The position numbers and the translations under genes were made by a program. A stretch of DNA of 64,000 nucleotides from positions 1 through 64,000 of the forward strand of contig JACQDL010000061.1 of the NCBI GenBank assembly GCA_016201065.1, in the 5' to 3' direction. Positions 31,633 through 56,454 of the stretch are shown here, piece by piece; the first letter of the stretch is position 1, and each line of letters opens with the position of its first letter. The notes beneath the pieces are model-generated. The model made no database searches, was not told where the DNA came from, and saw nothing but the letters and a program-made list of their open reading frames with translations. The stretch is from Actinomycetota bacterium (lineage in GTDB: Bacteria > Actinomycetota > Actinomycetes > Mycobacteriales > JACQDL01).

Positions 31633-31833
31633 TCAGCGGGCGAGATGCGCCCGCACGCTGCGCGGTCGCAGGTCGGTCCAGATCTCCTCGATGTGGTCCA
31701 GGCACTCCTGCTGGCTGCCGACGAAGCCGGTGCCGTGCCAGCCGGGTACGTCCGGCAGGTGCGTCGGCCAGATCGAGTACTGCTCCTCGTCGTTGACCAC
31801 GACCCGGTGCGCCGCGTCGTCCATGGTGTTCAC
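31633..31833 (-). CDS. MbtH-like protein
   Basis: A 66-residue chaperone of adenylation domains. Signature residues seen: VVVNDEEQYSIWPTHLPDVP, GWHGTGFVGSQQECLDHIEE and IWTDLRP. It binds A-domain N-terminal subdomains and is needed for their folding or activity; its partners here must be A1 and A2 of NRPS1, the only A domains in the operon. GTG 31833 overlaps the PKS stop (GTGA); ATG 31824 is an alternative start. It is the last gene of the long minus-strand operon. Confidence 0.95.
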   Translation of the reverse strand: MNTMDDAAHRVVVNDEEQYSIWPTHLPDVPGWHGTGFVGSQQECLDHIEEIWTDLRPRSVRAHLAR

Positions 31834-40171: not shown

Positions 40172-41313
40172 CGGACACCTGCCAAGGTCGTCGGGGCCTC
40201 GAGTGCGGCCTTTGTCTCCCGGAGGAAGAGCAACGCGTCCCGGCCGTTGACCACCCGGTGGTCGTAGGCGACGCCGATGGTGGTGACCTGCCGGGGGACC
40301 ACCTCGCCACGGTCGTCAAGGATGAGCTCGCGCCGGACACCGCCCAGGCTCACGGCGCACACCAGATCCGGCGGCACGAGCGGTACAGCCACGGTGACGT
40401 CGGCCTCCCCCTGCAGCGAGACCACGATCGTGGCGCCGGTGAGGTCGGCGGTCCGGAAGGTCCGCGACGTGGCCCGCTCGCGGAAGTCCATCAGCACGTC
40501 GGCCAGTTGCGTGCAGGCCATCTCCTGTGCGTCGCGGACAACCGGGATGAACAGTCCGGTGCCGACATCGACCGTGACCCCGACGTGCGCGCCGTCCACC
40601 AGCCGCACGCTGCGGCCGTCATAGTTGGTGCCGAAGAAGAGCGGGAACCGCTCCCGCAGCCCGGCGAGCGCCTTGACCAACAGCTCGGGCAGCCCGACCA
40701 GGCAGCGGGTGCTGCGGCTGAGTCGGCGGGCCAGGTCGGTCGCCTGCTCGACGTCCACCGACACGGCGGTGAACGCCGCCGGCACGGTGCGGTGCGACTC
40801 GGTGACGACCGCAGCCACACCCTGCTGTGATCGCGGCAGCAGATGCACCCGCCCCGGCACCGCGTCGGTCGGAGCGGGTGCCGGGCCCACCGGGGTCGCG
40901 AGCTGCTCCACGTCCTCGCGCCGGACGACGGACCGGCCGAGGGCCCGCACCCGTTCGAGCGGGATCCCCAGCTCCTCGATCAGCGCCCGGGCCGGCCCGG
41001 TGAGCACCACACCGTCCTGGCCGGCTGCCGCTGCGGCGCCGCTGGGCGGTGCGGCGGCCAGGAAGCGCTGCCGTTCGCTTTCGGCGGCGAAGACGCGGCC
41101 GATGACCTCGCCCGGCCGGCATTCGCCACCCACAGCGACGACGTGGTGCAGCACGCCGGCGCCTTCGCAGACCAGCTCCTCGGCCGTCTTCGAGGTCTCC
41201 AGCACCACGACCGCGTCGCCGCGGCGGATGACCGCACCGTCGTCGACCAGCCAGTCCAGCAGGACGTAGGTGCGGTCGTTGGTGTTGAGCCGGGGCACCA
41301 CCACGTCAGCCAC
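40168..41313 (-). CDS. 2-oxoacid dehydrogenase E2 (acyltransferase) subunit
   Basis: A 381-residue E2 with a lipoyl domain (VVVLETSKTAEELVCEGAGV, lipoyl Lys about residue 42), a subunit-binding domain (VVLTGPARALIEELGIPLER, then VRALGRSVVRREDVEQL) and a CAT-type catalytic domain. The active-site segment reads DHRVVNG: the His (about 352) is kept but the usual Asp is Asn. With the adjacent E1alpha and E1beta and no E3, it should pass an acyl group from lipoyl to an acceptor, probably the cluster's ACP rather than CoA (inference by analogy with the Nap/Qnc C2-unit loaders). GTG start; overlaps the E1beta stop by 8 nt. Confidence 0.92.
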   Translation of the reverse strand: MADVVVPRLNTNDRTYVLLDWLVDDGAVIRRGDAVVVLETSKTAEELVCEGAGVLHHVVAVGGECRPGEVIGRVFAAESERQRFLAAAPPSGAAAAAGQDGVVLTGPARALIEELGIPLERVRALGRSVVRREDVEQLATPVGPAPAPTDAVPGRVHLLPRSQQGVAAVVTESHRTVPAAFTAVSVDVEQATDLARRLSRSTRCLVGLPELLVKALAGLRERFPLFFGTNYDGRSVRLVDGAHVGVTVDVGTGLFIPVVRDAQEMACTQLADVLMDFRERATSRTFRTADLTGATIVVSLQGEADVTVAVPLVPPDLVCAVSLGGVRRELILDDRGEVVPRQVTTIGVAYDHRVVNGRDALLFLRETKAALEAPTTLAGVR

Positions 41314-42334
41314 GATCGATCCCCCTTCGCAGGTAGTCCTTCACCATGTGCCGGATGTCCTCGTCCTGGACCAGGACCTCGTGCTCCAGGTGCGCCGTGC
41401 TCGGGACGACAGCGTCGCGGGCGTGCAGCTGCCGCACGGGAGCGCGCAGCCGGCCCCACAGCCGGGTGTGCACGTCGTGGGCGATGCCGGCACCCCAGGT
41501 GCCGCCCGCGGTGCTGTCCTCGACCACGACCACCTGCTGGGCCGCCGCGAGCACCGGGAGCAGCGGCTCGACGTCCAGCGGGTACAGCTGCGCCGGCACG
41601 AGCACCTCGGTCACGATCTCGTCCACCAGCAGCAAGGTGCGGGCCGCGGCCAGCGCCCGGCCCGCCAGTCCGCCCGGGCAGACCAGTACGCAGTCGGGCG
41701 CCCCGACGTCCTCAACCCGGGCTCGCGCCACCGACTGGGGGCCGAGGAGGTCGAACCCGAACAGGTCGTCCACCCGGCCGTCGCGGTGCGTCCGCTCGGT
41801 GTAGAGCACCTTGTCCTCGAACAGGATCGTGGGGCGTCCCCGCGCAAGGATCGCCGCGAAGATGTCACCGGCGTCGTGGAACGGCGAGAGTTCGAACAGC
41901 ACCAGGTTCGGGACGCCGAGGAAGTGTTTCTGCAGGCTCTGGCTGTGGGTCGGGCCATAGCCGCGGCGGCCTCCGGTGGGGCAGCGGATCACCAGCCGGA
42001 TCGGCACGACCCGGCCGAACATGGTCACCGCCTTGCTGGCGAAGTTGACGATCTGGTCGAACGCCAGCGTGACGAAGTCCGAGAACATGATCTCGGCGAT
42101 GGCCGTCTGTCCGGTGAGCGCCAGCCCGCCGGCAACGCCGACCAGGCCACCCTCGCTGATCGGAGTACCCAGCACACGGTCGGGGTGGCGGGTGGACAGG
42201 CCGTGGGTGACCTTGAACGCGCCACCGTACGGGTCGGTGATGTCCTCCCCGAGCAGGTACACCTTCGGATCCCGGTCCAGCAGGTCGCCCAGCGCCCGGT
42301 TGAGGTTCTCGACCACCCGCTCGGTATGGCTCAC
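41306..42334 (-). CDS. 2-oxoacid dehydrogenase E1 component, beta subunit
   Basis: A 342-residue transketolase-fold subunit of the PDH/acetoin-dehydrogenase type. Seen: VYLLGEDITDPYGGAFKVT, the TPISEGGLVGVAGGLALTG segment with the ThDP-activating Glu, the IRCPTGGRRGYGPTHSQS loop, and C-terminal EVLVPAQLYPLDVEPLLP. Together with the alpha subunit it decarboxylates a 2-oxoacid, or cleaves a ketose as in the Nap/Qnc systems, to form the acyl-lipoyl intermediate. The ATG overlaps the E1alpha stop (ATGA). Confidence 0.94.
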   Translation of the reverse strand: MSHTERVVENLNRALGDLLDRDPKVYLLGEDITDPYGGAFKVTHGLSTRHPDRVLGTPISEGGLVGVAGGLALTGQTAIAEIMFSDFVTLAFDQIVNFASKAVTMFGRVVPIRLVIRCPTGGRRGYGPTHSQSLQKHFLGVPNLVLFELSPFHDAGDIFAAILARGRPTILFEDKVLYTERTHRDGRVDDLFGFDLLGPQSVARARVEDVGAPDCVLVCPGGLAGRALAAARTLLLVDEIVTEVLVPAQLYPLDVEPLLPVLAAAQQVVVVEDSTAGGTWGAGIAHDVHTRLWGRLRAPVRQLHARDAVVPSTAHLEHEVLVQDEDIRHMVKDYLRRGIDRG

Positions 42335-43227
42335 GAATCCTCCCCGGTCACGGGTGGCCGCCGCAGGACGTCCTCCGACGCCGCCGCGACCCGGTCACGC
42401 TGCCGCTCGTCGGCCTGCCGCACGAGATCCGGGAATGCCGCGGCGTACTGGCGCAGCCAGTCGTTCTCATGCAGCCGGGCCAGGTGGTCGGCGTCGCGGG
42501 TGTCATCGCCCTTGCTGTGCGGACCGAGCCGCGTGGTGTGGAACTCCACCACGAGCGGTGCCGGTCGCTCCCGGACGGCGTCCAGATCGGAGCGCAGCTG
42601 GCGCCGGATCGCCGCGAGGTCCACCGAGTCGACCGGTACGTGCCGGATCCCGAACGCGGCGGCGCGGGCGGCGATCGAGCCGGCCAGGTGCCGGTGGGTC
42701 GGGGTGGACTGCGCGATCCCGTTGTGCTCGACCACGACCAGCAGGGGCAGCTGCCACAGCGCGGCGATGTTGAGCGCCTCGTACACCGCACCCTCGCCCC
42801 AGCTCCCGTCGCCCACATAGGCGACCGCGAGCCGGCCGGGTTCGGCGTCCCGGAGCCGCAGTGCGACGCCGGCCGCGACCGGGAGGCTCTGGCCCTGCAC
42901 GCCGGTCGACAGGTATCGGTCCCGCAGCAGGTGCTGGCTGCCGCCGACACCGTGGCAGACCGCGCCGCGCCGTCCGGTGATCTCGGCGAGCAGGCCGTGC
43001 GGGTCGTCGAAGCGCGCGAGGTAGTGGCCGTGCCCGCGGTGGTTGCTGAACACCCAGTCGTCCGGGCGCAACAACGGTTGCAGGGCGACCGGCACGTACT
43101 CCTGGCCGAGGCAGGTGTGCGTCGTACCCGACACCAGGCCCTCGGCGAACAACCGCAGCACGGTCCGCTCGACATGCCTGATCAGCAGCAGCAGGTCGAG
43201 GTCGGCCGGTGCCGGCTCGGTCAGCAT
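42331..43227 (-). CDS. 2-oxoacid dehydrogenase E1 component, alpha subunit
   Basis: A 298-residue thiamine-diphosphate enzyme subunit. The ThDP/Mg motif GDGSWGEGAVYEALNIAALW to VVEHN is intact (GDG...N), and VFSNHRGHGHYLARFDDPHG and HGVGGSQHL are the usual active-site segments. In place of primary metabolism it sits in the NRPS/PKS operon between ACP1 and E1beta, so it probably makes a two- or few-carbon acyl unit for an ACP. ATG 43227 overlaps the ACP1 stop (ATGCTGA); a GTG 24 bases earlier also opens the frame but would overlap by 31 nt. Confidence 0.94.
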   Translation of the reverse strand: MLTEPAPADLDLLLLIRHVERTVLRLFAEGLVSGTTHTCLGQEYVPVALQPLLRPDDWVFSNHRGHGHYLARFDDPHGLLAEITGRRGAVCHGVGGSQHLLRDRYLSTGVQGQSLPVAAGVALRLRDAEPGRLAVAYVGDGSWGEGAVYEALNIAALWQLPLLVVVEHNGIAQSTPTHRHLAGSIAARAAAFGIRHVPVDSVDLAAIRRQLRSDLDAVRERPAPLVVEFHTTRLGPHSKGDDTRDADHLARLHENDWLRQYAAAFPDLVRQADERQRDRVAAASEDVLRRPPVTGEDS

Positions 43228-43478
43228 GGCTCCTCCCGCGCCAGCATCCACGAGTCCGCGACCAGCGACACCACGTCCCGGACGGTCGTGGCGGACAGGT
43301 AGGCGCGCAGGTCCAGCCGGATGTCGAGGCGGTCCTCGAGCGCGGTCAGCAGCTGCAGCGCGGACAGGCTGGTCCAGGGATGCAGGGACTCGAAGCGGGT
43401 GGCGTCGTCGAGGTTCTCGGCCGGGACGCCGGTCACCTCCTCGAGTAGCCGGATGACGGTCGTGAGCGGCTCAGGCAT
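43221..43478 (-). CDS. Stand-alone acyl carrier protein ACP1
   Basis: An 85-residue four-helix carrier protein. The phosphopantetheine Ser is in HPWTSLSALQLLTALEDRLD (the Ser of TSL); the usual Asp before it is Thr. Genes on both sides overlap it: the FkbH-like stop by 8 nt and the E1alpha ATG by 7 nt. It is therefore the best candidate to accept both a glyceryl-type unit from the FkbH-like enzyme and an acyl unit from E1/E2. It will need the Sfp-type transferase at 30854. Confidence 0.88.
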   Translation of the reverse strand: MPEPLTTVIRLLEEVTGVPAENLDDATRFESLHPWTSLSALQLLTALEDRLDIRLDLRAYLSATTVRDVVSLVADSWMLAREEPC

Positions 43479-45372
43479 GGGCGGGCACTCCCTCGTCCTC
43501 GGGTGCGGTGGGGTCTTCGAGGGTGATCCAGTCCGGCAGCAGCGACGCCGGTGCGGGCAGCGGCAGGTCGTAGCGCACGCCGCCGTCCGGATCCTCGGTG
43601 CGGGTGAACCCGGCGGAGTCGAGGAACTCCCGGACCGGGTCGTTGCGCCCGCTGGGCCGCCAGCGGGCGCTCAGCCGTGGTGCTCCGGCCCGGCCGGCCT
43701 GGTTCACCACCGCCGACAGCACGGCGTGCTCGATGCCGCGGCCGAAGACGCGGCAGCTCATGACGAAGTTCTCCATCTCCCAGCCGTCGGCGGCCAGAGC
43801 CACCCACACCCCGCCCACCACGCCCTCGTCGCCGAACCGGTCCGCCACGGTGAACGCGAGCACCAGGTGGTTCGCGGACGCCGCCATGGCGCGGGTGCGG
43901 GCCTCCGGGCGGGTTCCGCCGGCGAGGTTGAACTGGTTCGTGCGCCGCTCCAGCTGGACCACCCGGAGCAGGGTGGCGCTGTCCGCGGGGCGGATGGTGA
44001 CCCGCAGGTCGAGATCGCGCAGGTAGTCGGCGGCCGACTCGAACGACGCGGCGACGTCGGCACGCCGTGCGCGCGCCCGGTACAGCTGGGTGCGCTCGCG
44101 GTCGGTGTCGCCGACCGCCAGGACGTCGAAGTGTCCGCGGGCGAGCAGGGTCGCGACGTGACCAGCGGGGTCGCCGGCAAGGTGGAGCACCTCGACGTCG
44201 GGCAACTCGCGCCGGATCAGCGCGCACTCGAAGCGGGAGTCGTCGGCGAACACGAAGCTGTCCAGGCGCAGGTCGAGGGTGCGGGACAGCTCGCGCAGGT
44301 TGTGATCCTTGCGGCCCCAGTTGACCGCCCGCGCGACAACGTCGTCCGGGCGCAACACCAGGTCCGGGTGCCGGGCGAACACCTCCTCGACCGCAGCGGG
44401 ATCGTTCTTGCTGCACAGCGCCAGCAGCACACCTTGCTGCCGCAGTGTGAGCGCGACCCGTTGCAGCTCGGTGTAGCAGTTGCCCGGGTAACCACCGCCG
44501 ATCTCCAAGCCGTCAGGGCCGTCGTCGCCGAGCACCCCGCCCCAGAGCGTGTTGTCCAGGTCGAGGACGAGCACCTTGCGGCCAAGACCGGCTACGGCCC
44601 GCGCCACTGTGGTGGCCTCCTGCGCGTAGTGCCGCTCGACGGCGGGCGTCCATGCCATCGAGGCGAACCGGTAGAGCCGGTCGTCGCGGACCGGGCCGGG
44701 GTGATCGACGAGCAGCGCCTCCAGATCGAGCACCTGTACCGATGGCAGCAACTCCGGCAGCTCCAGAAGACCCAGGTTGAACTCCCGCCACACGCGCCCC
44801 AGCGCCGCCTTCGACCGGTGCGCGATCACCGCTCGGTGCTCCGCGGGCGACAGCGGCACGGTGTGCAACAGCACCGTCCCTGGGATGCGCGCCGTGAAGC
44901 CGGCCAGCGCGCCGCGCAGCGCGCCGAGCCGGTCGGCGAGCACCTGGCGCAGCGCCTGCGGGGCGGCAGGGTCCCAGGACTGCGGCAGCACGGCGCCGTC
45001 GTGCAGCAGGCACAGGGTCAGGTCGGGGTCGAATCGGGCCAGCACCGATCCGGGGTCGGCCAGCTGCACCATGAGCTGGTCGAACCCGGCGAGCTGGAAG
45101 TGCGGCGCGATGCCGCCGCGCAGCAGCAGCACCCGCAACATGGGGACCACGGACTCCGCCGTGAAGGTACCGGTGACGCCGACCCGCATCGGGCGCAGTG
45201 GCCGGTCCGGCGGCGTGATCAGACCCGGCGGGACACCCTCCAGCAGCCGGCCGGCGGCGGCCAGCTCAGCGTTCCCGGTCACCCGACCCAGCGCGTCGCG
45301 CAGGTCCGGGTCCGGAGCGGCGCCCGCGGCGCGAACACGTCGGATCCGTTCCAGTACGTTCCCGTCGTCCAT
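43471..45372 (-). CDS. FkbH-like HAD-IIIC protein with intact catalytic motifs
   Basis: A 633-residue protein. An N-terminal FkbH-type domain (about 60-250; MRVGVTGTFTAESVVPMLRV, then FDQLMVQL) is followed by the HAD domain: DLDNTLWGGVLG (271-282), CSKND (320-324) and FADDSRFE (375-382), all intact. The C-terminal GNAT-like part holds ERRTNQFNLAGG and ENFVMSCRVFGRGIEHAVL. Characterised relatives load a glyceryl unit from 1,3-bisphosphoglycerate onto an ACP and remove the phosphate. No methoxymalonate genes (FkbI/G/K-type) accompany it, so the unit is probably used as a glyceryl group. It overlaps ACP1. Confidence 0.93.
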   Translation of the reverse strand: MDDGNVLERIRRVRAAGAAPDPDLRDALGRVTGNAELAAAGRLLEGVPPGLITPPDRPLRPMRVGVTGTFTAESVVPMLRVLLLRGGIAPHFQLAGFDQLMVQLADPGSVLARFDPDLTLCLLHDGAVLPQSWDPAAPQALRQVLADRLGALRGALAGFTARIPGTVLLHTVPLSPAEHRAVIAHRSKAALGRVWREFNLGLLELPELLPSVQVLDLEALLVDHPGPVRDDRLYRFASMAWTPAVERHYAQEATTVARAVAGLGRKVLVLDLDNTLWGGVLGDDGPDGLEIGGGYPGNCYTELQRVALTLRQQGVLLALCSKNDPAAVEEVFARHPDLVLRPDDVVARAVNWGRKDHNLRELSRTLDLRLDSFVFADDSRFECALIRRELPDVEVLHLAGDPAGHVATLLARGHFDVLAVGDTDRERTQLYRARARRADVAASFESAADYLRDLDLRVTIRPADSATLLRVVQLERRTNQFNLAGGTRPEARTRAMAASANHLVLAFTVADRFGDEGVVGGVWVALAADGWEMENFVMSCRVFGRGIEHAVLSAVVNQAGRAGAPRLSARWRPSGRNDPVREFLDSAGFTRTEDPDGGVRYDLPLPAPASLLPDWITLEDPTAPEDEGVPAHA

Positions 45373-45435: not shown

Positions 45436-46458
45436 TCACACCCGCAGGACGGTGCAGACCCAGTGCGTGCCGCTGCTCGTGCTGGTGAGGGCGACCAGAT
45501 CGCCATCGGACAACTCACCCGCCGCGAGGTGCTGCTCCAGGCTCAGCAGCTGATCCGCGCAGCCGACGTGGCCGTGTTCCAGGGCCAGCTCGACGTTGGT
45601 GCGCTCCAGCGGCACGTCCAGGTCCTTGGCCAGCTCGGTGAGCTGCTTGAGGTTGTCGTGGAGGTGCACGACGCGGGCCAGGTCGGCGATCTCGATGCCG
45701 GCCCTGGTGCAGGCGGCCTCGACGACCTCGCGCTGGCGCGCCCGGAGCGTCGCGACGAAGCTGAACATCCGGCGGACGTCGCCGTCGAAGAACACCTCAA
45801 GCCGCTCGAACGGGCTGCGTACCCTCGGCTGGTCGGGGTCTCCGGCGGTGAACGGGTGGGCCGCGCCACCGCGGTCCATCCGCATGAAGTCCGCGTAGCG
45901 ACCGTCGGTGAGCACGTGCGTGGTGAGCCAGCGGCAGCGGCCGTGATCCCGGCGGAGCACGGCCGCCGCGGCGCCGTCCGAGAACACACTGGTGTTGATC
46001 TCCATGCGGTTCCAGTACGGCTCGCAGACCCGGTTGGCGCCGACCAGCAGCGCGGTCCGGTACTCCGCGTGGGTGGCGAACCTCCCGGCGACCGCGTCGA
46101 AGCCGGCGACGCCGCCGCCACACGCCTGACTGAGCAGCACCGCCTCTGCGCGGTGCGCGCCGAGCCCGGCCTGGGTGGCCGCGGCCGGGTCCCAGTACAG
46201 GTACTCGACGAGGTCGGAAACGGCCAGGACGACCAGGTCGACATCCGCGGCGTCGACGCCGGCCGCCGCCAGCGCGCGCCTCCCGGCGTCGACGGCGAGA
46301 TCGGTGAGGCCGACGCCGTCGGGTGCCCGGTGGAAGCCGCGGTACCCCCAGCTCGCGACCCGCTCCAGATCGTCGGTGTACCGGGGGGCCGCCTCGGCGA
46401 CGTCCGCGCGGTCGCCGAGGACGTGGCCGAGGCCGAGGATCCCGAACACCGCGCTCAC
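45436..46458 (-). CDS. KAS III-like (FabH-type) ketosynthase/acyltransferase
   Basis: A 340-residue thiolase-fold protein. The nucleophile Cys113 is in LLSQACGGGVAGF. The His region reads VVHLHDNLKQL, and the segment normally GNTSAA (with the third catalytic residue Asn) reads EHGHVGCADQLL. Cys-His-Asp variants of this family act as acyltransferases (CerJ/ChlB3-type) rather than condensing enzymes, so transfer of an acyl group from an ACP to O or N, or C-C bond formation with a glyceryl-type unit as in tetronates, are both possible. GTG start overlapping the next upstream gene's stop. Confidence 0.86.
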   Translation of the reverse strand: MSAVFGILGLGHVLGDRADVAEAAPRYTDDLERVASWGYRGFHRAPDGVGLTDLAVDAGRRALAAAGVDAADVDLVVLAVSDLVEYLYWDPAAATQAGLGAHRAEAVLLSQACGGGVAGFDAVAGRFATHAEYRTALLVGANRVCEPYWNRMEINTSVFSDGAAAAVLRRDHGRCRWLTTHVLTDGRYADFMRMDRGGAAHPFTAGDPDQPRVRSPFERLEVFFDGDVRRMFSFVATLRARQREVVEAACTRAGIEIADLARVVHLHDNLKQLTELAKDLDVPLERTNVELALEHGHVGCADQLLSLEQHLAAGELSDGDLVALTSTSSGTHWVCTVLRV

Positions 46459-48152
46459 CCCCGCTCGATCGTCACGTCGAGCCGCAGCGGCCGGCCGGCC
46501 ACCGCTGACCAGTCCCGTCCAGCCGCCTCGCCCAGGAAGCGCAGCGCGGACCCGTTGACGCCCGTGTCTCGCGCGGTGACGGTGAGCCGGTCGCAGCCGG
46601 CCCGGCCGGCCCGCCCCACCAGCTCCGCCAGCACGGCCGCCTCAACGCCCTTGGCGAGCACCGGGCAGGACACCGAGAACAGGTCGACGACGCCCACGGC
46701 CCCGTCTAGGAGCCGCATCCGGACCGCCGCTCCGAGTCCGTAGTCCGCGAGCCGGTCCCGGATCGTGACGGCGAGCAGCCCGTCGAGGCCGGCCGCCAGA
46801 TCGGTGAGATCGCTCGGCCGGCCGAGGGTGAAGTCCTTGGCCCGCGCGACCAGCTCGGCGATGTCGGCCAGGCGGTCGACCGGTGCTGGTCGGATCTCGA
46901 GCCGCACGTCGAGTCCGGCGACGTAGTCAGCCAGCGACATGGCGGCGGCCGGTCCGGTCGCGGCAGTGACCGGGGGCGGGCGGCCGGGCGCCAGCGGCCG
47001 GGCGCCGGCGTCAGGGTCGCCGGCGTCCGGGTCGGGGAGTCGGTCGAACAGGCCGCTCGCCAGCAGCTGCGCGGGCCACTCCTCCGGCTCCCCGGCGAGG
47101 ACGACGGTTCGGGCGTCGTGCTGGCGGCTACCGAGGTCGTCGGCGAGCAGCGGATCCGTGGTGATCACGGCCACCGCACCCGCCAGCTCGTCGGCGTCCG
47201 CTGCCAGCGCACGCACCTGGTCGCGCGCGGGTCGGCGGTCGACCGCCCAGCCCGGAGCCAGGTCGCGCAGCAGCTCCGGGAACGCCGTCACCAGAGGACC
47301 CAAGGCCACGCGTCCGGGCGATCCGCGCAGCGCGACCCGGAGGCCGGCGGCGTGCAGCTGGAGCAGCGGCTCCCGCAGCGCGGTCACGGCGTCGAGAGCC
47401 TGGGTGCCGGCGGCGCCGGTCCGGTCCGGCGAGACGTCGACCGCCAGCAGGGCGTCGCCGTCGAGGACGACGACCCGGTGGCGGCGGGCGTGACGCAGGG
47501 CAATGATCCGGCCCAGCTGGTCACCCAGCCGGGCGTAGAGCTCCTCGGTGTAGGGCACTCTGGCGTACCGGAACATCGCGGGGTGGAACGCGCGCGCGAG
47601 GCCGACCCGGCGGACCGCCTCCTCGGCGTCCGCCACCAAGACGTTCGGGCGCCCGGCCAGCAGCTGCCGGACCGCCTCCCGGGCGGCGGTCGCCGCGGCC
47701 ACCACGCCACCCGGATCCGCAGCGTCACCGACCCCCTCGGGTCGCCGGTCGGGGATCTCGGGCAGCACGACGAGCAGGCACGACCCCCACCACCGGGCCG
47801 CGGCCGAGGCAGCCTCCACGACGCCGACCAACTCCTCCACCCAGCCGCGCCGGGCGGACACCGGACCGAGCTCGGTCAGCCGGGGCGCCACCACGAGCAC
47901 GTCGGGCCGGGACCGCGCGAACCCGCCCGAGTCGTCCAGGCACTGCTGGGTGATCTGGTTGGCCGGGCCGACCTCCACGGACGCCGCCAGCCCGGCCCGG
48001 TGCAGCGCCATGCCGAGGTAGGGCACCAGCGGGTCGGCCGTGTAGCTGGCCAGCACACCCACCGTGAGCTGGGGCGCCTGCTGGCTCCCGCGCACCTGCC
48101 GCCACCGGGCCCGCAGCGCGCGCAGGTCGCCATCCGGATGTGTGTCGCGCAT
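46455..48152 (-). CDS. Degenerate FkbH-like protein (HAD motifs lost)
   Basis: A 565-residue paralogue of the gene at 43471 with the same order of parts: N-terminal FkbH-type domain (LTVGVLASYTADPLVPYLGM), HAD-like middle and GNAT-like C terminus (FSVSCPVLAKGVEAAVLAEL). The HAD motifs are damaged: DLDNT is replaced by DGDAL (231-235), the Lys motif CSKND by RGSPG (276-280), and FADDS by TTDPL. ERRTNQFN has become VARAKDFT. The frame is intact with good codon use, so it is a maintained pseudo-enzyme, possibly a carrier-protein binder or acyltransferase. It is 8 bp from ACP2, mirroring the FkbH/ACP1 pair. Confidence 0.85.
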   Translation of the reverse strand: MRDTHPDGDLRALRARWRQVRGSQQAPQLTVGVLASYTADPLVPYLGMALHRAGLAASVEVGPANQITQQCLDDSGGFARSRPDVLVVAPRLTELGPVSARRGWVEELVGVVEAASAAARWWGSCLLVVLPEIPDRRPEGVGDAADPGGVVAAATAAREAVRQLLAGRPNVLVADAEEAVRRVGLARAFHPAMFRYARVPYTEELYARLGDQLGRIIALRHARRHRVVVLDGDALLAVDVSPDRTGAAGTQALDAVTALREPLLQLHAAGLRVALRGSPGRVALGPLVTAFPELLRDLAPGWAVDRRPARDQVRALAADADELAGAVAVITTDPLLADDLGSRQHDARTVVLAGEPEEWPAQLLASGLFDRLPDPDAGDPDAGARPLAPGRPPPVTAATGPAAAMSLADYVAGLDVRLEIRPAPVDRLADIAELVARAKDFTLGRPSDLTDLAAGLDGLLAVTIRDRLADYGLGAAVRMRLLDGAVGVVDLFSVSCPVLAKGVEAAVLAELVGRAGRAGCDRLTVTARDTGVNGSALRFLGEAAGRDWSAVAGRPLRLDVTIERG

Positions 48153-48160
48153 GTCGCCCC

Positions 48161-48409
48161 CTAGACCTTGGCGCCCTTGGCGCGCATGACGTCCCGGACC
48201 TGACCGATCGAGCGCAGGTCGCGGATCTCGCGGTAGGAGAAGGACAGGCCGTACGCCTCCTCGAGGGTCACCATGAGCTGGAGATGCCGCAGGCTGGTCC
48301 AGGCCGCGAGCGTGTCCGGGCCGGCACCGTCGACCACCTCGGTCGGGTCGACCTCGAACACCTCGGCGACGACGCGGACGAACTCGCCGCCCGCCCCCGG
48401 CGCGCTCAC
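48161..48409 (-). CDS. Stand-alone acyl carrier protein ACP2
   Basis: An 82-residue carrier protein. The attachment Ser is in LAAWTSLRHLQLMVTLEEAY; as in ACP1 the residue before it is Thr rather than Asp. The C-terminal helix YREIRDLRSIGQVRDVMRAK is typical of ACPs that travel with FkbH-like proteins. GTG 48409 overlaps the exporter stop (GTGA). Adjacent to the degenerate FkbH-like gene, it is a natural partner for that protein or for the KAS III-like enzyme. Confidence 0.87.
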   Translation of the reverse strand: MSAPGAGGEFVRVVAEVFEVDPTEVVDGAGPDTLAAWTSLRHLQLMVTLEEAYGLSFSYREIRDLRSIGQVRDVMRAKGAKV

Positions 48410-49833
48410 GGCTCCACCGGCGCTGGCTCCAGCGCCGGCCCCGCCCCCTCGGGGCGCGGCGCGGTCCGCGACCCGTCCGGGCGCTCGCTGGGCTGCCGCC
48501 GGCCGGGTGGTGGCTCGAGATCGACGTCCGGCAGGATGCTCTCGATCCGCCGGATGTCGGGCACCGCGAAACCGATGACGGCGACCGCCGCGCCGAGCAG
48601 GCCGACGATGACGTACATCAGCCCGATGCCGGCACCGGGACCGGTCCCGACCAGGTCCGCGAACAGCCGGGCGCCGGTGTGGCCCGGACGCATCCACGGC
48701 TCAAGCACCCGGTCCACGAGCGGACCGGCGATCAGGGCGGCCAGCGGGATGGTGAGGTCCTCGACGAACTGGCGGGCGGCCATCACCCGCCCCTGAGCAT
48801 GCGGTACGACCTTTTCCTGGAAGAGGGTCTGCGCGTAGCCGTCGATGAACGGAATGCACAGGTGAACGACGAGCAGGGCGACCGCCCACGCCACCCAGTT
48901 CTGCCCGACGCCGTACAGCACCCGGCCGACGAGGCTGAACACCATGATTGACACCAGCACCCTGCGCATCTTGTGTGGCGTCCGCGGCAGTGTGCCGAGC
49001 AGCACCGCGCCGGTCACCCCACCGATCGCCGCGAGCGTCTGCACCAGGCCGACCTGCGCCTCGTCGTTGCCGGTCCGGGCCAGGATCAGTGGGATCAGGA
49101 GCAGGAAGCCGACGGAGGCGAAGAGGTTGATCGAGAACATGATCGCCTCGAGGAATGCCAGCGGACGCCGGGCCCGGAGGTAGCGGAAGCCGTAGAGGGC
49201 GTCCTGCCACAGGCTCGCCGGTCCGGCCTCACCGCTGGCAGGGATCGGTGGCAGGGTGACCAGCAGCGTCACCCCGATCGCGGCGAGGTACGACAGGACG
49301 TCGATCAGCAGGACCACGCGGATGTCGGTGTGGGCGAGCAGCGCCGCCGCGAGCCCCGGGGCGAAGATGACCGGGACCGACCGGACCGCGAACATCATCG
49401 CGTTGGCCCTCGGGTAGGCGCCCCGCTCCACCATCACGGTGATCGTCGCCGAGTAGGCCGGTCCCTGGAACGCGAGGAAGGCGCCGGTCGCGGCGTTCAC
49501 CGCGTACAGCTGCCACATGCTGACCGAGTGGGTGGTGAACAACACCAACACCGCCAGGGTGGCCACGGCCGACCCCACGTCGCTGAGCACGATCGTGAGC
49601 CGCCGGCTCCATCGGTCGATGAGCGCGCCGGCCACCGGGCTGAACACCACGGTCGCCGTGAAGGCGCAGAAGGTGAGCATGACGAAGTCGGTCGCCCGCC
49701 CGGTGGCCTCCCACACCCAGATGCTCAGGGCGAAGTTCGTCATCCGGGTCCCCACCGCCGACAGCAGCTGGCCGAACCAGATGGTGGTGAACCCGGCAAA
49801 CCTCGAAGGTCGTCGTAGCGCCGTCACGGTCAT
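48406..49833 (-). CDS. MFS exporter (DHA3/EntS-like)
   Basis: A 475-residue major-facilitator protein with 12 TM helices. DHA3-type features: IWFGQLLSAVGTRMTNFALS at the start, PVAGALIDRWSRRLTIVLSD (motif A) and VVPHAQGRVMAARQFVEDLT between the halves. The tail after about 430 is a Pro/Arg-rich cytosolic extension. Position inside the operon, overlapping NRPS2 and ACP2 by 4 nt each, marks it as the probable exporter of the cluster product. ATG 49833 overlaps the NRPS2 stop. Confidence 0.93.
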   Translation of the reverse strand: MTVTALRRPSRFAGFTTIWFGQLLSAVGTRMTNFALSIWVWEATGRATDFVMLTFCAFTATVVFSPVAGALIDRWSRRLTIVLSDVGSAVATLAVLVLFTTHSVSMWQLYAVNAATGAFLAFQGPAYSATITVMVERGAYPRANAMMFAVRSVPVIFAPGLAAALLAHTDIRVVLLIDVLSYLAAIGVTLLVTLPPIPASGEAGPASLWQDALYGFRYLRARRPLAFLEAIMFSINLFASVGFLLLIPLILARTGNDEAQVGLVQTLAAIGGVTGAVLLGTLPRTPHKMRRVLVSIMVFSLVGRVLYGVGQNWVAWAVALLVVHLCIPFIDGYAQTLFQEKVVPHAQGRVMAARQFVEDLTIPLAALIAGPLVDRVLEPWMRPGHTGARLFADLVGTGPGAGIGLMYVIVGLLGAAVAVIGFAVPDIRRIESILPDVDLEPPPGRRQPSERPDGSRTAPRPEGAGPALEPAPVEP

Positions 49834-52800
49834 CCCCTCTGGTGGTGGTCGTGGTACTGGTCCCGCTGTTCGTCGAGCAGGCATCCGGCGGCGAGGCGGC
49901 GCAGCCGGGCGAGCGTGCCGTCGAGCAGCCGCTGCGCGGTGCTCCGGCGGTATGCCGTCGTGCCGTAGCTGAGGTCGACCCGCAGTCGGCCGGCGACCAT
50001 CGACCCGGCGACGTCGACCGGGAAGGGCCAGCGGCCGTCGGGGTCCTCGGTGGAGCCGTAGGGCGCGGTGCAGACCTCGAACCAGGGCTGTTGGCCGGGC
50101 ACCTCGTCGAAGCCGAAGTTGCCCATGTAGTTGACCGCGAGCCACGGGTACCCGTGCTCGGTCAGCCGCCGCCGTACGTCGAGGTCGCGGGATCCGTAGC
50201 GCAGCGCGCCGTACCCGATCCCGTTGCGCGGTACCCGACGCAGCTGACGGACGACGTCGGCCGCACCGTCGACGTCCGTGGCGTCCATGCGCAGCCGGAG
50301 CCGGATCGGGTAGAGCACCTGGAACCAGCCCACCGTGCGTGAGACGTCCACGTCGTGGAAGAGGTCCTCGCGGCCGTGCCCGGTGGTGGCGAGGGCGCAC
50401 ACGTCGCTGCCGGCGCTGTCGGCCACGGTCGCGGCGACCGCCCAGACCAGCAGGTCGCGGATGCCGCCGCCGACCCGCCGCGCGGCCTCGTGCAGGCCGG
50501 CTGTCACCTCGCCGTCGAGCGCGTCGCCGATCCCACCGAGGGTGCCCAGCGTGGTGGCCCCCGACGGGTCGTCCGGGGCCACCACGGCCGCGCCGTCGGC
50601 GTGCTGGTCGAGCCAGAACGGCAGCTCCGCCTGGGTCGTCGCGCGGTTGGCCCAGGCCGCGAGCCGGTGGCTCCAGGCGAGGTAGGACGTGGTCCGGCCG
50701 GGCAGCACCGGCGTACTGCCGCACTCCAGCTGCCCGCACAGGCTCTGCAGGTCGTCCAGCAGGATGCCACGGGACACCGCGTCGACCACCAGGTGGTGCG
50801 TCACGATCAGCAGCCGGTCCCGGTGCGGCGCCGGGAGCCGCACATGGAGCACCCGCACGGTCGGACCGGCGTGCAGGTCCAACTGGGTCTGTTCGGTGGC
50901 GGCAAGCCGCTCGACCGCGGTGTCGAGGTCGGCTGGACCGGTCGTACGTAGGTCGTGGCTGGTAAACGGAACGGCGTCCGCGACCGGCGCGCAACGCTGC
51001 CGCCAGCCGCCGGTGGCGTCAGGGTCGCTGTCGAAACGCAAGCGCAGCGCGTCGTGGTGTTCGACCAGCAGCCGGACGGCGGTGCCGAGCGTCGCGGGCG
51101 CGACCGGCCGCACCACCTCCAGGTAGTAGGGATGGTTGAAGTGAGCCGGGCGGCGCATCCGCGGCGCGAGCTCGGTGAGGAACCAGCTCTGGGCGGGGGT
51201 GACCGGGCCGGCCTCGGCCGGCGCTGGCGTGGCGCCGTCCGGTGCGCCCACGGTGGCGGTGGCCGCGACGCCTCCGGCGTCAGCCAGCACGCACAGCTGG
51301 GCGATGGTGGGATGCGCGACGAGCTGCCGTGGCGTGATCGACACGCCCGCCGCCGTGGCCTGGTGCACCAGCCGCATGGCGAGCAGCGAGTCCCCGCCGA
51401 GGTCGAAGAAGTCGTCGTGGACGCCGACCTCCGGCAGCCGCAGCAGGTCGGCCCAGATCGCGGCCAGCAGCCGCTCCCGAGGCGTCCGGGGCAGGGCCGA
51501 CGCCCGGTTCGCGACCCGTCGGTACCCGTTGTCGACCGCGGACCGGATCGCGGCCGCCGTCGGTAGGTCGGCGGCCAGGTCGACGTATCGTTGCGCGGTC
51601 GTCGGCGGGTTGTCCGCGCTCGCCACGGTTGGGATGTCGTCCGGGCCGGCAGTGTCGAGCAGCCACAGCCGCGCCGCGATGCCGCCCAGCGGCTGGTCGG
51701 CCGGCAGCAGGAGTACGGTCGCGGCGGGGTGGGCGGTGCGTACCGCCGCCACGACCTCCGGGTCGCGGTGCAGCACCAGGGCCTGCGACGGGTCGCCGAG
51801 CCCCGCCACCACAGCCGGCAGGTCACCGGGGTCGCCCGGTGCCACCCGGGCGGCACCGGCGGCCACCAGCGCGGCCAGATCCGGCGCGCCGGGGGCGGCC
51901 GTGAGGACGACGTCCCGGCCTCGCGCCGCTTGGTCGCGCACCAGGCGGCCGACGTCGCCGGGGGTGCCGGCAGCCGGGTCGAGCACCAACCTGTCCGGGT
52001 GCCGCCGCAGCCCGCGGTCGGCGGCGCGGGCAACCAGGGTGCCTGCGATGACCTCGAGCGCTGCGGTGTCGGTGGGGGAGGCCGCGTACCGCCGGGCCCA
52101 TGCCGCGACCGGTTCGACGCTCACGTGCGCGTACCTCGCGCACGCCCGGCGCAACCGTTGGGTCACGTCGGCCACCATTCCGGGCCAGGGATCGTGGGCA
52201 CCGGCGAGCGCGCCGGGCACCACCCCGATCAGCAGCGGGGCTGGGTTCCGCAGGCGGAACCGACGGACCGCCTCGACGAGATCGCGCAGTGCACCGTCCA
52301 GCCGGGTGGCCGCAGCGGGCAGGGCACGCGGTGCGGACAGGTCAGCGCCGGTCAGCCAGTCCTCCCAGCGCAGCAGCACCACGGCGAGGCCGTCCGGATC
52401 GGCGAACGGTCCATCGATGTCCAACAGCGGCCGGAGTACCTGGCAGCGGCCGGCGGGGAGCAGCTCCAGCCCCGGGCGCACCTGCGCCGCCCAGAACCGT
52501 GCCGTGGCGAGCACCGGCTCGACCGGGAAGGATGCCGCGACGGTCACCCGGTGCCCATGAGCGCGGATCGGTGCCGGCGCCGGAACACGACCGCGGGTCG
52601 GGCCGATCGGCTCGTCCGGCCGTGCCAGCAACTCGGATACCGTCGCGGTAAAGCGGTCGAGCAGCCGCCGGGCGCGCCGCGGTGCGGACAGGTCGGCGCG
52701 GTAGGTCAGGTCGGCCCGCAGCTCGCCGTCACCCCAGCTGAGGGTGAGGAAGAGGTCGAAGTCGACGCCCGGCGCGCCCACCTCGATCGGCTCGACGTCG

Positions 52801-55800
52801 AGGCCGGACAGCCGCGGCGTCTCGTCAACGAGGTCGAGCAGGTTGAAGACGCTCTGGAACAGCGGGTGCCGGGAGGCGTCGCGGGGCAGCCGCAATGCCT
52901 CCACGATCCCGGCGAAGGGCACACCCTTGTGCCGATAGGCCTCCAGCCCCGTGGTGTGCACGCGGCGCAGCAGCCGACGGAACGACGGCCACCCGGTGAG
53001 GTCCAGCCGGAATGGGAGCAGGTCGGTGCAGCACCCGATCAGCCGTTCCAGCTCCGGCCGGTCCCGGCCGGCCCACGGCACGCCGACCACCAGGTCCGAC
53101 TGCCCGCTCTCGTGCCGCAACAGCACCGCGAACGCGGCCAGCAGCACGGTGAACGGCGACACCCCTTCGGCCCTGGCCAGCTCGCGTACGGCGGCCCCGA
53201 GACCGGCGGGCAGCGTCGCCGCCTGGTGGCCGGCCCGATCCGAGCGGACCGCCGGACGCTCGTGGTCGATGGGCAGGTCGATCGCGGTCGGAGCGCCGTG
53301 GAGGGCCCGCCGCCAGTAGGCGACGTCCGCAGCGGTCGCGGCGGCGTCCTGGCGCTGCCGTTCGTCGTAGGCGACGTCGCCGAACTGCAGCGGCAGCGGG
53401 GGCAGCGGCGACGGGAGGCCGGCGACGAATGCCCCGTACAGCTCGACAAGCTCGTCCAGGAAGAGGCTCCAGCTGGTGTTGTCGCAGATGATGTGGTGCA
53501 TGCCGATGAGCAGTAGGTGCTGGTCGTGGCCGGTGACCAGGAGCCGCACCCGTAGCAGCGGCCCGGTCGCCAGGTCGTACCGGTTCTCGACGTGCCGGTC
53601 GATCTCCACGCGGGCGGCAGCGTCGCGCTCGGCCATGGACCGGTCGGTGAGGTCGATCGGCGCCAACCAGCAGTCCAACTCGGGGTGGACGACGGGGGCC
53701 GCCTCGCCGCGGCGGCTCGTGAACGTGGTACGCAGGGACTCGTGCCGGGCCACGATCTCCGCCACGGACCGGCGCAGCGCCGTGACGTCGAGCGGACCGG
53801 TCAGCCGCGCCGCGAAGGTAGTGTTGTGTCGCGCCGTGTCGGCGTTGAGTTCGGCCAGCGCCCACAAACGCTGCTGGGTCGAGGACGCCACCGGTTCGGC
53901 ACCGGACGGAGCGGGCCCCAGTGGAGTGGTGGACTCGGTGGCGTCGTCCAGCAGCCGAGCCAGCTGCTCCACGGTCGGGTTGGTGAACAGCGCGTAGAGC
54001 GAGACGTCACGGCCGAACTCGGCCTTCACCTGGGACAGCACCTGGGTGGCCACCAGCGAGTGGCCGCCGAGGGAAAAGAAGTCGGCGGTGACGCTGACCC
54101 GATCGACCGGCAGCATCCGCTGCCACAGCGCAGCCAGCCGCTCCTCGGTGGGTGTGCGGGGCGCGACGTACGCGTGGTCCGCAGTCGCCGGGGGGCGGAC
54201 GGGCACCAGCCGCTCCAGCAGGGCGGCCGGGTTCGCCATCGTCTCCGTGACCAGGACGGCCCGCTCGGCCCCGGCTGGCGTGGCCAGCCGACCCGGTCCG
54301 AGCAGGCCGCCCGACCCGTCGGGAATCCCGTGGAGCAGGCGGCCGATCTCGGCCGCGAGCAACGCGGAGTACCGCGCGGTGTAGGGGACGTGCCCGAGCC
54401 GGTCGGCCTGCTCGTCGGCGACCGGGTCGGCCGAAACGTCGGCCGTGGATCCGTCCGGGTCCCGCGCCCAGACCACCCGCGTCCCGGGCACGCGGGAGCC
54501 CAGCAGGGCAAGCCCGTCGTCCAGCCGGCCCAGGACTGTGGCCCACTCGCCGTCCCGGAAACGACCCGAGGCGGGGCACACCACGAGCAGCAGCGGTGCC
54601 GTGGTCTGGCGTCGGTAGGCCCGGACCCCGGACTCCAGGTCGGTCATCGCGGCGTCGAGGATCGTCGCGGCCGCCGCCGGGCCCTCCTCGGGGTCACACC
54701 GGCGCAGCCAGTCCTGCCAGCGGATCAGGCAGACAGCAGCCGCCCGGTCGGCGGGAGCGAACAAGTGCTGGATCAGCTGGCCGTAGCCGACCGGGGTCAC
54801 CCCAACGGGCACTCTCAGCAGCCGCAGCCAGGCCTCGAGCGGGGCCCGGACAAGGTCCGCAGTGAAGGTCGCGGCCAGGGCCACCTCGTCGCGCCGCAGC
54901 GCGCCGAACGACGCCAGCGGCCGCTCGGGCTCATGGGCCGCATCGGCCAGCTCGGTGAAGCCGTCGACCGCGGCCGACACGAGCCCCTCGACCGTTTCGT
55001 CCAGATAGAGGTCGGTGTTGTAGTGAACGGCACCATGCAGGCCGTCAGCGCCCCTGGTGAGGGCGATGAAGAGGTCGAAGTCGGTCAGGTCCGAGTCGAC
55101 CGGAACCTGCGCCACGGTCAGCCCGGCGGCGGTCAGGGACTCCTCACCCGCCTCCGCGACGGTCAGCATCACCTGGAACAGCGGGTTACGGCTGGGGTCC
55201 CGCCGGCCGCCCACCTGCTCCACCACCCGCGCGTAGGGCGCCTGCTGGTGCTGGAACGCCGCACTCACCGCGCGATGGGTCAGGGTGAGCAACTGCTCCA
55301 CCGTGGGGTCGCCGGACAGGTCGAGCCGCATCACCAGCACGTTGGCAAACGAGCCGATCAGCGGTTCGAGCTCGGTGCGCGGCCGTCCCGCCGACGGCAT
55401 TCCCAGTGTCACGTCGTCCTGGCCGTTGAACCGGCGCAGCAGAGCCGCGAACCCGGCCAGCAGGACAGCGTTGAGGGTGGCGCCCGCGCCGCGCCCCTGC
55501 CGCGCCAGGCCGTCGGTCACGACGGCGGAAAGGACGAACTCCCGGTGCCGGCCGCGGTGGGACTGCACAGCCGGACGCGGGTGGTCGGGCGGCAGGGTGC
55601 ACTCCGGTGGCAGGCCGTCGAGCCGGTCGCGCCAGTAGGCAAGGTGCTGCTGCATCACGGCGAGCGCCGCGGGTTCGCGATACCGCCGGGCGTGGTCGAC
55701 GAACTGGGTGGTCAGCGCGGGCAGCCGGGCCGGCCCTTCGCCCGAAAGCTCGCCGTAGAGCGCGACCAGGTCGCGTGTGAAGACGTCCGCGGACCAGGCG

Positions 55801-56306
55801 TCGAAGATGATGTGGTGAGCGGTGACCAGCAGCACATGACGGTCATCGGCGATGGCGAGCAGGCGGGTGGCGAGCAGCGGCCCCCGGGTCAGCGAGAACG
55901 ACGTCGCGGAGTGGGCGGTCGACGCCCGGCCCACGGCCTGCCGGCGCGCGTCGTCCGGCAGGGCCCTGAGGTCGGTGACCGGCATGGGCAGCCGCAGACG
56001 TTGCCTGGCGTGCTGGGCGATCCCGCCGTCGTGCTCGGCGAAAACGGTGCGCAGTGCGTCGTGGCGGGCGACGACCGCGTCGAGCGCACCGTGCAGCCGC
56101 GGAACGTTGAGCGGTCCCTCGAGCCTCAGCGCGAACGGGACGTTGTATGCCGGCGAACCGGGCTCACGTCGGTCGAGGAACCATAACTGTTCCTGGGTGA
56201 ACGAGACGGGCGATGGATTCTCGGTCTTGCGGCGCAGGCGCAGCGCGAGGAGCTCTCGCTGTTCCGGCGTGAGATCGGCGAGCGTCCGCTGGAGACCGTC
56301 CGTCAT
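49830..56306 (-). CDS. NRPS2 without A domains: C-FkbH_N-PCP-C-FkbH_N/pseudo-HAD-PCP-E-like
   Basis: About 2158 residues. C1 (about 35-460) has HHIIFDAW. A domain at about 473-660 then replaces the A domain: VALAATFTADLVRAPLEAWL, CLIRWQDWL and DRLGHVPYT match FkbH N-terminal domains. PCP1 Ser750 in SLGGHSLV. C2 (about 800-1225) has HHIICDN. A second FkbH-type N-terminal domain (about 1250-1430; VTVAASFPVEPVL, VVLLRWEDWL) is followed by a HAD-like part without catalytic residues (RLVLDPAAG, VVLTAAPG, LVLHRDPEV; to about 1595). PCP2 Ser1640 in DLGGDSLL. E-like domain (about 1695-2150): THHLVVDAVS, TVGWFQVLYP, NYMGNF, but TTGHGRE in place of EGHGRE. ATG 56327 is an alternative start. First gene of the operon. 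Confidence 0.88.
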   Translation of the reverse strand: MTDGLQRTLADLTPEQRELLALRLRRKTENPSPVSFTQEQLWFLDRREPGSPAYNVPFALRLEGPLNVPRLHGALDAVVARHDALRTVFAEHDGGIAQHARQRLRLPMPVTDLRALPDDARRQAVGRASTAHSATSFSLTRGPLLATRLLAIADDRHVLLVTAHHIIFDAWSADVFTRDLVALYGELSGEGPARLPALTTQFVDHARRYREPAALAVMQQHLAYWRDRLDGLPPECTLPPDHPRPAVQSHRGRHREFVLSAVVTDGLARQGRGAGATLNAVLLAGFAALLRRFNGQDDVTLGMPSAGRPRTELEPLIGSFANVLVMRLDLSGDPTVEQLLTLTHRAVSAAFQHQQAPYARVVEQVGGRRDPSRNPLFQVMLTVAEAGEESLTAAGLTVAQVPVDSDLTDFDLFIALTRGADGLHGAVHYNTDLYLDETVEGLVSAAVDGFTELADAAHEPERPLASFGALRRDEVALAATFTADLVRAPLEAWLRLLRVPVGVTPVGYGQLIQHLFAPADRAAAVCLIRWQDWLRRCDPEEGPAAAATILDAAMTDLESGVRAYRRQTTAPLLLVVCPASGRFRDGEWATVLGRLDDGLALLGSRVPGTRVVWARDPDGSTADVSADPVADEQADRLGHVPYTARYSALLAAEIGRLLHGIPDGSGGLLGPGRLATPAGAERAVLVTETMANPAALLERLVPVRPPATADHAYVAPRTPTEERLAALWQRMLPVDRVSVTADFFSLGGHSLVATQVLSQVKAEFGRDVSLYALFTNPTVEQLARLLDDATESTTPLGPAPSGAEPVASSTQQRLWALAELNADTARHNTTFAARLTGPLDVTALRRSVAEIVARHESLRTTFTSRRGEAAPVVHPELDCWLAPIDLTDRSMAERDAAARVEIDRHVENRYDLATGPLLRVRLLVTGHDQHLLLIGMHHIICDNTSWSLFLDELVELYGAFVAGLPSPLPPLPLQFGDVAYDERQRQDAAATAADVAYWRRALHGAPTAIDLPIDHERPAVRSDRAGHQAATLPAGLGAAVRELARAEGVSPFTVLLAAFAVLLRHESGQSDLVVGVPWAGRDRPELERLIGCCTDLLPFRLDLTGWPSFRRLLRRVHTTGLEAYRHKGVPFAGIVEALRLPRDASRHPLFQSVFNLLDLVDETPRLSGLDVEPIEVGAPGVDFDLFLTLSWGDGELRADLTYRADLSAPRRARRLLDRFTATVSELLARPDEPIGPTRGRVPAPAPIRAHGHRVTVAASFPVEPVLATARFWAAQVRPGLELLPAGRCQVLRPLLDIDGPFADPDGLAVVLLRWEDWLTGADLSAPRALPAAATRLDGALRDLVEAVRRFRLRNPAPLLIGVVPGALAGAHDPWPGMVADVTQRLRRACARYAHVSVEPVAAWARRYAASPTDTAALEVIAGTLVARAADRGLRRHPDRLVLDPAAGTPGDVGRLVRDQAARGRDVVLTAAPGAPDLAALVAAGAARVAPGDPGDLPAVVAGLGDPSQALVLHRDPEVVAAVRTAHPAATVLLLPADQPLGGIAARLWLLDTAGPDDIPTVASADNPPTTAQRYVDLAADLPTAAAIRSAVDNGYRRVANRASALPRTPRERLLAAIWADLLRLPEVGVHDDFFDLGGDSLLAMRLVHQATAAGVSITPRQLVAHPTIAQLCVLADAGGVAATATVGAPDGATPAPAEAGPVTPAQSWFLTELAPRMRRPAHFNHPYYLEVVRPVAPATLGTAVRLLVEHHDALRLRFDSDPDATGGWRQRCAPVADAVPFTSHDLRTTGPADLDTAVERLAATEQTQLDLHAGPTVRVLHVRLPAPHRDRLLIVTHHLVVDAVSRGILLDDLQSLCGQLECGSTPVLPGRTTSYLAWSHRLAAWANRATTQAELPFWLDQHADGAAVVAPDDPSGATTLGTLGGIGDALDGEVTAGLHEAARRVGGGIRDLLVWAVAATVADSAGSDVCALATTGHGREDLFHDVDVSRTVGWFQVLYPIRLRLRMDATDVDGAADVVRQLRRVPRNGIGYGALRYGSRDLDVRRRLTEHGYPWLAVNYMGNFGFDEVPGQQPWFEVCTAPYGSTEDPDGRWPFPVDVAGSMVAGRLRVDLSYGTTAYRRSTAQRLLDGTLARLRRLAAGCLLDEQRDQYHDHHQRG

Positions 56307-56454
56307 TCCGCCCCGTCCCCTCGCCATGGGTCTCCGCGGCCGCAGTCATGAAGCGCGGCGTGCGAGCCGGCGGAGCTGCCCAGCGTCGGTGTCGTCTCCG
56401 AGAAGAGAGTCGTGCGGTGCATCTGGATACGCACCTGTCGGGTGATTTCCTCGG

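Follow-up and report, generated by a model that had tools for sequence, protein, structure and literature searches.

NRPS1 and its domain layout

The DNA analysed here, hereafter the window, is a stretch of 64,000 nucleotides from an actinobacterium (contig JACQDL010000061.1, assembly GCA_016201065.1). It encodes NRPS1, a nonribosomal peptide synthetase (NRPS) whose condensation (C) and peptidyl carrier protein (PCP) domains are separated by two unusual inserts, X1 and X2. The gene lies on the minus strand (49830..56327), as do all other window features given below. NRPS1 is a single open reading frame (ORF) of 2165 residues with an ATG start; the initial annotation ended it at 56306, 21 bases short. 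Pfam identified three Condensation and two PP-binding domains, in the overall order C1-X1-PCP1-C2-X2-PCP2-C3. C1 (residues 39-472, 54912..56213) and C2 (residues 815-1243, 52599..53885) were located by Pfam and a motif table and carry HHIIFDAWS and HHIICDNTS, respectively. The same sources placed PCP1 (residues 717-790, 53958..54179) and PCP2 (residues 1607-1680, 51288..51509), with the serine in LGGHSL and LGGDSL. The PCP serines are thus intact, and HHxxxD is kept in the C domains. The inserts span residues 478-716 (X1 plus a linker) and 1249-1600 (X2).

The terminal domain, C3 (49863..51230), was classed as an epimerisation-like C domain by a partial match to TIGR01720 and by the motif table. 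Wherever C3 was seen in the family, TTGHGRE (the form in NRPS1) or AVAGHGRE/P replaces EGHGRE, and the catalytic Glu of epimerisation domains is gone. Judged by this missing Glu, C3 may have a role in release or condensation and not in epimerisation. In the window cluster, no gene was recognised as a thioesterase.

NRPS1 lacks adenylation domains

The core motifs of adenylation (A) domains had been reported missing from NRPS1, and this was borne out in three ways. Pfam gave no AMP-binding match in NRPS1 at E≤1. TSGSTG, YGPTE, YRTGD and GRxDxQVK are absent from NRPS1, whereas each is found twice in the neighbouring NRPS2. A profile built from the A domains of the clusters, the comparison proposed for detecting ordinary or degenerate A domains in the inserts, gave negative bit scores for X1 and X2, compared with about 750 bits per true A domain. 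A degenerate A domain is therefore ruled out as the identity of either insert. Neither the cluster nor the tested flanking genes, which are non-biosynthetic (cytochrome oxidase, antiporter, phosphoesterase and AlkZ), yielded a free-standing A domain.

The inserts belong to the FkbH family

No Pfam model matches either of the two FkbH-like proteins of the operon, FkbHa and FkbHb, and we therefore used home-made FkbH profiles. A profile of the FkbH N-terminal domain (N-domain) was built from 30 intact FkbH N-domains, with no insert among them, and was searched against the 551 ORFs of the window. The best matches were X1 (residues 478-667, E=5.6e-30) and X2 (residues 1249-1425, E=2.5e-20), followed by FkbHb (about 1e-18) and FkbHa (1.4e-13), and all remaining ORFs were noise (E about 2). 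The proposal of the initial annotation that the inserts are FkbH-type N-terminal domains was thereby upheld. A direct relationship between X1 and X2 was also evident: their pairwise identity is about 33-38 percent, and their alignment scored z about 20 against shuffled sequences. Direct alignment was weak with FkbHa (z 4.8 for X1, 3.8 for X2) and with FkbHb (z 1.6 and 1.1). The alignment of the inserts with these two proteins, as originally claimed, therefore stands as homology by way of the family profile, whereas the pairwise scores (z 1 to 5) could not secure it from the operon's own FkbH sequences alone. GHVPYT, cited as a motif common to the inserts, was found in X1 only.

X1 (residues 478-668, 54324..54896) was delimited by profile and alignments, without HAD or GNAT, and appears to be an SGNH-type N-domain alone. 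Structure models were made for X2 and FkbHb, whereas the assignment of X1 relies on its sequence only. The AlphaFold model of X2 (pLDDT 80, pTM 0.74) matched BF1531 (3slr) with Z 18.6 over 295 residues. BF1531, solved as an N-terminal part plus a phosphatase domain, is the only clear PDB sequence relative of FkbHa. The first half of the X2 model matched SGNH/GDSL esterases (Z about 13) and the second half HAD phosphatases (Z 8.7). Profile, model and fold match place the N-half of X2 at residues 1249-1440 (52008..52583); alignment, HAD profile and fold match place its C-half at residues 1441-1600 (51528..52007). In the C-half the motif I region reads LVLDPAAG in place of the DxDxTLW of active HAD domains, and the HAD profile gave E=0.004, compared with 7e-44 for FkbHa. 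X2 is an SGNH-type N-domain followed by a dead HAD remnant, and it is longer than X1 because it retains this degenerate segment. There is no GNAT-like domain ahead of either PCP in NRPS1: there is no room for one, TIGR01686 has no match, and the alignment shows no counterpart. Since both modules have lost GNAT and have a HAD part that is either deleted or dead, we conclude with considerable confidence that PCP1 and PCP2 cannot be charged in cis.

Distribution and conservation of the double-X protein

A scan of contigs with X1 alone as the query gave no match. Repeated with an alignment of the window and Streptomyces X domains, the scan gave ten loci, of which one (L032, Bifidobacterium) was discarded for want of a homologous cluster. 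The genome survey that had been suggested for proteins combining C, FkbH N-domain and PCP was carried out, and it revealed the same architecture, with both inserts (double-X), in 12 other actinobacterial genomes (13 with the window). These are the Streptomyces plasmid NBC_01136, Streptosporangium, S. diastatochromogenes, Micromonospora (2), Lentzea (4) and one genus, probably Streptomyces, that was surveyed across 393 genomes (3). Of these loci, L024 and L066 contain the protein in part only.

The N-domain is kept throughout the family alignment, and any remaining HAD part has a broken motif I. The HAD part is wholly deleted from both inserts in the Lentzea proteins, and the GNAT part is found in no double-X protein of the alignment. 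Among the Lentzea species dN/dS was 0.21-0.44 for the N-domains and 0.17-0.29 for C1, C2 and C3; the N-domains of the inserts are constrained, slightly less than the C domains.

A pseudo-FkbH is the constant partner of the double-X protein

FkbHb (46455..48152) accompanies the double-X protein in 13 of 13 genomes. A two-way test in the surveyed genus found FkbHb in exactly three of the 393 genomes, the same three that encode a double-X protein. An N-domain match was obtained in 60 of the 393, and the other 57 had no FkbHb at E≤1e-25. Most of the 60 encode polyketide synthase (PKS)/NRPS proteins of about 4,600 residues that end in C-FkbH and resemble FoxBII.

We aligned 48 FkbH proteins, comprising 36 intact members and 12 FkbHb. 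Three residues of the HAD domain, the Ser of motif II (replaced by Thr in one protein), the Lys of motif III and the Asp of motif IV, are found in every one of the 36 intact proteins and are missing from all 12 FkbHb. In contrast, the Asp, Ser-Cys and Asn of the GNAT domain are present in all 48, FkbHb included. The predicted model of FkbHb shows SGNH, HAD-like and GNAT folds in this order, the C-terminus being the GNAT fold. From this pattern of loss and retention and from the fold model, FkbHb has lost the HAD chemistry and probably kept the GNAT chemistry, with its conserved Cys. FkbHb has the three-domain layout and GNAT core of stand-alone FkbH glyceryltransferase/phosphatases (OzmB type), and differs from them in the loss of the HAD catalytic residues from every orthologue. 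FkbHa is an ordinary-looking member: it retained all HAD and GNAT residues in the 48-protein alignment. The pseudo-FkbH character of FkbHb, the conserved partner, went unremarked in the initial annotation.

Origin of the NRPS1 modules

A tree built from 73 N-domains grouped X1 and X2 with the domains of in-cis FkbH modules (support 87/84) and separated the stand-alone proteins FkbHa and FkbHb from that group (91/91). The tree has long branches, and the placement of the inserts within the in-cis group is unsure. Direct descent of X1 and X2 from the operon's own FkbH genes was rejected, given the weak pairwise scores and the distance on the tree. An intact in-cis example was found in Caballeronia (L025), where C, FkbH N-domain, HAD (DCDDTLWKG), GNAT and PCP lie in one chain. 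A conjugative Ensifer plasmid (L021, 10001-10591) also encodes a very large protein, annotated as SDR, in which both the FkbH N-domain and the HAD motif are intact.

The replacement of an A domain by FkbH within an NRPS has been described for vioprolide and cystomanamide (PMC8949500), foxicin (PMC5318452) and aeruginosins (PMC10143770). In these modules (FoxBII for foxicin, AerB for aeruginosin) the FkbH region lies between C and PCP, as in NRPS1. They differ from NRPS1 in that HAD and GNAT are kept and are reported to load glyceryl, whereas in NRPS1 the HAD is dead or absent and the GNAT is missing. In view of the tree grouping, both NRPS1 modules are best read as C-FkbH-PCP modules that were stripped of their catalytic parts. 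The original proposal differs, in that it had a docking domain take the place of an A domain. Our search of the literature, with subscription journals mostly outside its reach, found no paper that deals with this cluster or with FkbH in combination with SGNH.

Operon neighbours and candidate acyl supply genes

ACP1 (48161..48409), an acyl carrier protein (ACP) gene whose start codon is uncertain, adjoins FkbHb; it falls below the Pfam threshold and resembles the ACP of related clusters. An MFS exporter (48406..49833) lies between it and NRPS1. On the other side of FkbHb are a KASIII-like protein (45436..46458) in the size class of NapE/DinQ, FkbHa (43471..45372) with intact HAD (DLDNTLWGG) and GNAT, and ACP2 (43221..43478). 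These are followed by E1alpha (42331..43251), a thiamine diphosphate enzyme of a glycolyl-type cassette, the transketolase-like E1beta (41306..42334) and an E2 with a lipoyl domain (40168..41313). The ACP2 and E1alpha ORFs overlap by about 30 bases (43221-43251), and E1alpha may in fact start later than the GTG listed for it. NRPS2 (35024..40171) has the order A-PCP-C-A-PCP, each A domain with its own PCP, and a PKS module (31830..35027) contains ketosynthase, acyltransferase (AT) and ACP (KS-AT-ACP). The lipoyl E2 reads DHRVVNG, compared with the usual DHRxxDG of E2 acyltransferases; the same Asn is present in the Streptomyces orthologue and is perhaps linked to ACP rather than CoA as the acceptor.

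E1alpha, E1beta, lipoyl-E2 and a small ACP all lie in one operon of the window. The formation of glycolyl/hydroxyethyl-ACP from a ketose phosphate has been assigned to SclQ1-4 of scleric acid (PMC6335953) and to NapB-E/DinQ-U of tetrahydroisoquinolines (PMC7570522). By gene content and size, the window genes match these cassettes (NapB-E, QncL/M/N, DinQ/S/T/U and SclQ1-4), which comprise E1alpha, E1beta, lipoyl-E2, a small ACP and KASIII. In the dnacin pathway DinL has an inactive A domain and receives the hydroxyethyl unit (PMC7570522). DinL provides a precedent at the level of function: as in NRPS1, an activation domain that does not work separates C from PCP. In DinL it is a dead A domain, whereas NRPS1 has an FkbH remnant and a pseudo-FkbH partner. 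Two other readings of these genes were set aside. A self-resistance copy of 2-oxo acid dehydrogenase, as in dynaplanin, does not fit, the dynaplanin cluster being unrelated and its target the cellular E2. A tetronate-type FkbH/KASIII/ACP pathway would fit FkbHa and KASIII, but the E1alpha/E1beta pair points to a glycolyl cassette.

Three proteins, namely KS-AT-ACP, FkbHb and double-X, form the constant core of the clusters, and those examined also have a small ACP gene within the same stretch.

Proposed loading in trans and its alternatives

With no cis loader, no free A domain found in the cluster, and supply genes in the operon (E1alpha, E1beta, lipoyl-E2, two ACPs, KASIII and an intact FkbH), the most natural interpretation is that an acyl-ACP serves to load the PCPs in trans. 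The initial annotation had come to such loading as well, and had overlooked FkbHb as the key partner. We propose that PCP1 and PCP2 are loaded by FkbHb with a glycolyl or glyceryl unit and that the X domains are docking remnants, a model to which we give about an even chance. Two C-FkbH-PCP modules would have lost GNAT, with HAD dying or being deleted, and would always have kept the SGNH-like N-domain. Both PCPs would then receive a small hydroxyacyl unit in trans from a stand-alone ACP. FkbHb would be the probable transferase, through an ACP-to-Cys-to-PCP relay or directly from ACP to PCP, and we infer that the X domains dock and align FkbHb and the acyl-ACP. In the window the unit would most likely be glycolyl made from ketose phosphate by E1alpha/E1beta/lipoyl-E2, glyceryl from FkbHa, or both. 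C1 and C2 would couple it to the peptidyl-ketide chain.

Several observations weigh against this model. The supply genes vary: E1/E2 are present and FkbHa/KASIII were not seen in NBC_01136 and Streptosporangium, and the Lentzea genomes examined have FkbHa and KASIII with no E1/E2 set within about 19 kb. Three clusters of the surveyed genus have no E1/E2, FkbHa or KASIII nearby and contain stand-alone AMP-ligases, so that a different acyl unit may be supplied there. The unit may therefore differ between clusters or be loaded otherwise. FkbHb carries Pro or Val in place of the Arg beside the conserved Cys, and has Lys or His where TNQF has Asn. FkbHb may also not be the transferase, because the loading step of the tetrahydroisoquinoline pathways has been proposed to fall to KASIII-type proteins (PMC7570522).

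That last precedent underlies one alternative, in which transfer of the unit from the ACP to the chain is carried out by the KASIII-like protein or by C1/C2, as has been suggested for DinQ and the DinL C domain, and X and FkbHb serve in editing, tailoring or some other function. The gene content does resemble that of the hydroxyethyl pathways, with their proposed KASIII loader and an inactive A domain in the accepting NRPS; since KASIII was not seen in five clusters and FkbHb is in all, we consider this quite improbable. FkbHa could instead place glyceryl on PCP1 and PCP2 in trans from 1,3-bisphosphoglycerate, leaving FkbHb as a scaffold only. It lies in the same operon with full HAD and GNAT residues, and the clusters of Micromonospora and Lentzea retain it. 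It is not, however, in the stretches seen of NBC_01136, Streptosporangium and the three surveyed-genus clusters, despite double-X and FkbHb there, and its constant company with KASIII suggests a separate job; we regard FkbHa as a rather unlikely loader.

Trans-acting A domains that serve C-PCP modules are known in general, and stand-alone AMP-ligase genes lie near the three surveyed-genus clusters. An A domain of NRPS2 or from elsewhere in the genome might thus load amino acids in trans, X1 and X2 being inert spacers. Both A domains of the window have their own PCP, none further was found among the tested flanking genes, and the strict association of FkbHb with double-X and the FkbH origin of the modules would go unexplained. 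This explanation, too, appears unlikely. Finally, the modules could be decaying or skipped, with the chain passing unloaded PCPs, or the genes could be non-functional. The X domains are somewhat less constrained than the C and PCP domains and the HAD segments are visibly eroding, but ORFs and architecture are conserved between the window and four or more named genera of actinobacteria, the window's PCP serines and HHxxxD are intact, and dN/dS is well below 1. Decay therefore seems highly improbable.

Implications

In trans-AT polyketide synthases, modules without a cis loader keep a remnant of the loader and rely on a free-standing one. NRPS1 is analogous in its lost cis loader, kept remnant and free-standing candidate loader; the enzyme families and the carrier type are different, and the docking in NRPS1 is the part that we infer. 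More tentatively, we suggest a split FkbH system as the NRPS counterpart of trans-AT, in which the SGNH-like N-domain would be a dedicated docking platform, a pseudo-FkbH and an ACP would load hydroxyacyl units in trans on successive PCPs, and interchangeable supply genes would feed one loader. The occurrence of FkbH where an A domain would be expected is known already; what would be new is the variant in which FkbH is divided between a remnant for docking and a loader acting in trans.

Ordinary NRPS modules are limited to substrates that an A domain can adenylate. If the model holds, a module type fed by acyl-ACP, with no activation domain, would explain how hydroxyacyl units enter such assembly lines, and the loader and docking domain would form a portable pair for engineering. 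The N-domain is the sole part of FkbH that selection has kept here, which gives a handle on its function. Such clusters lie outside the A-domain specificity rules, and their products would be mispredicted.

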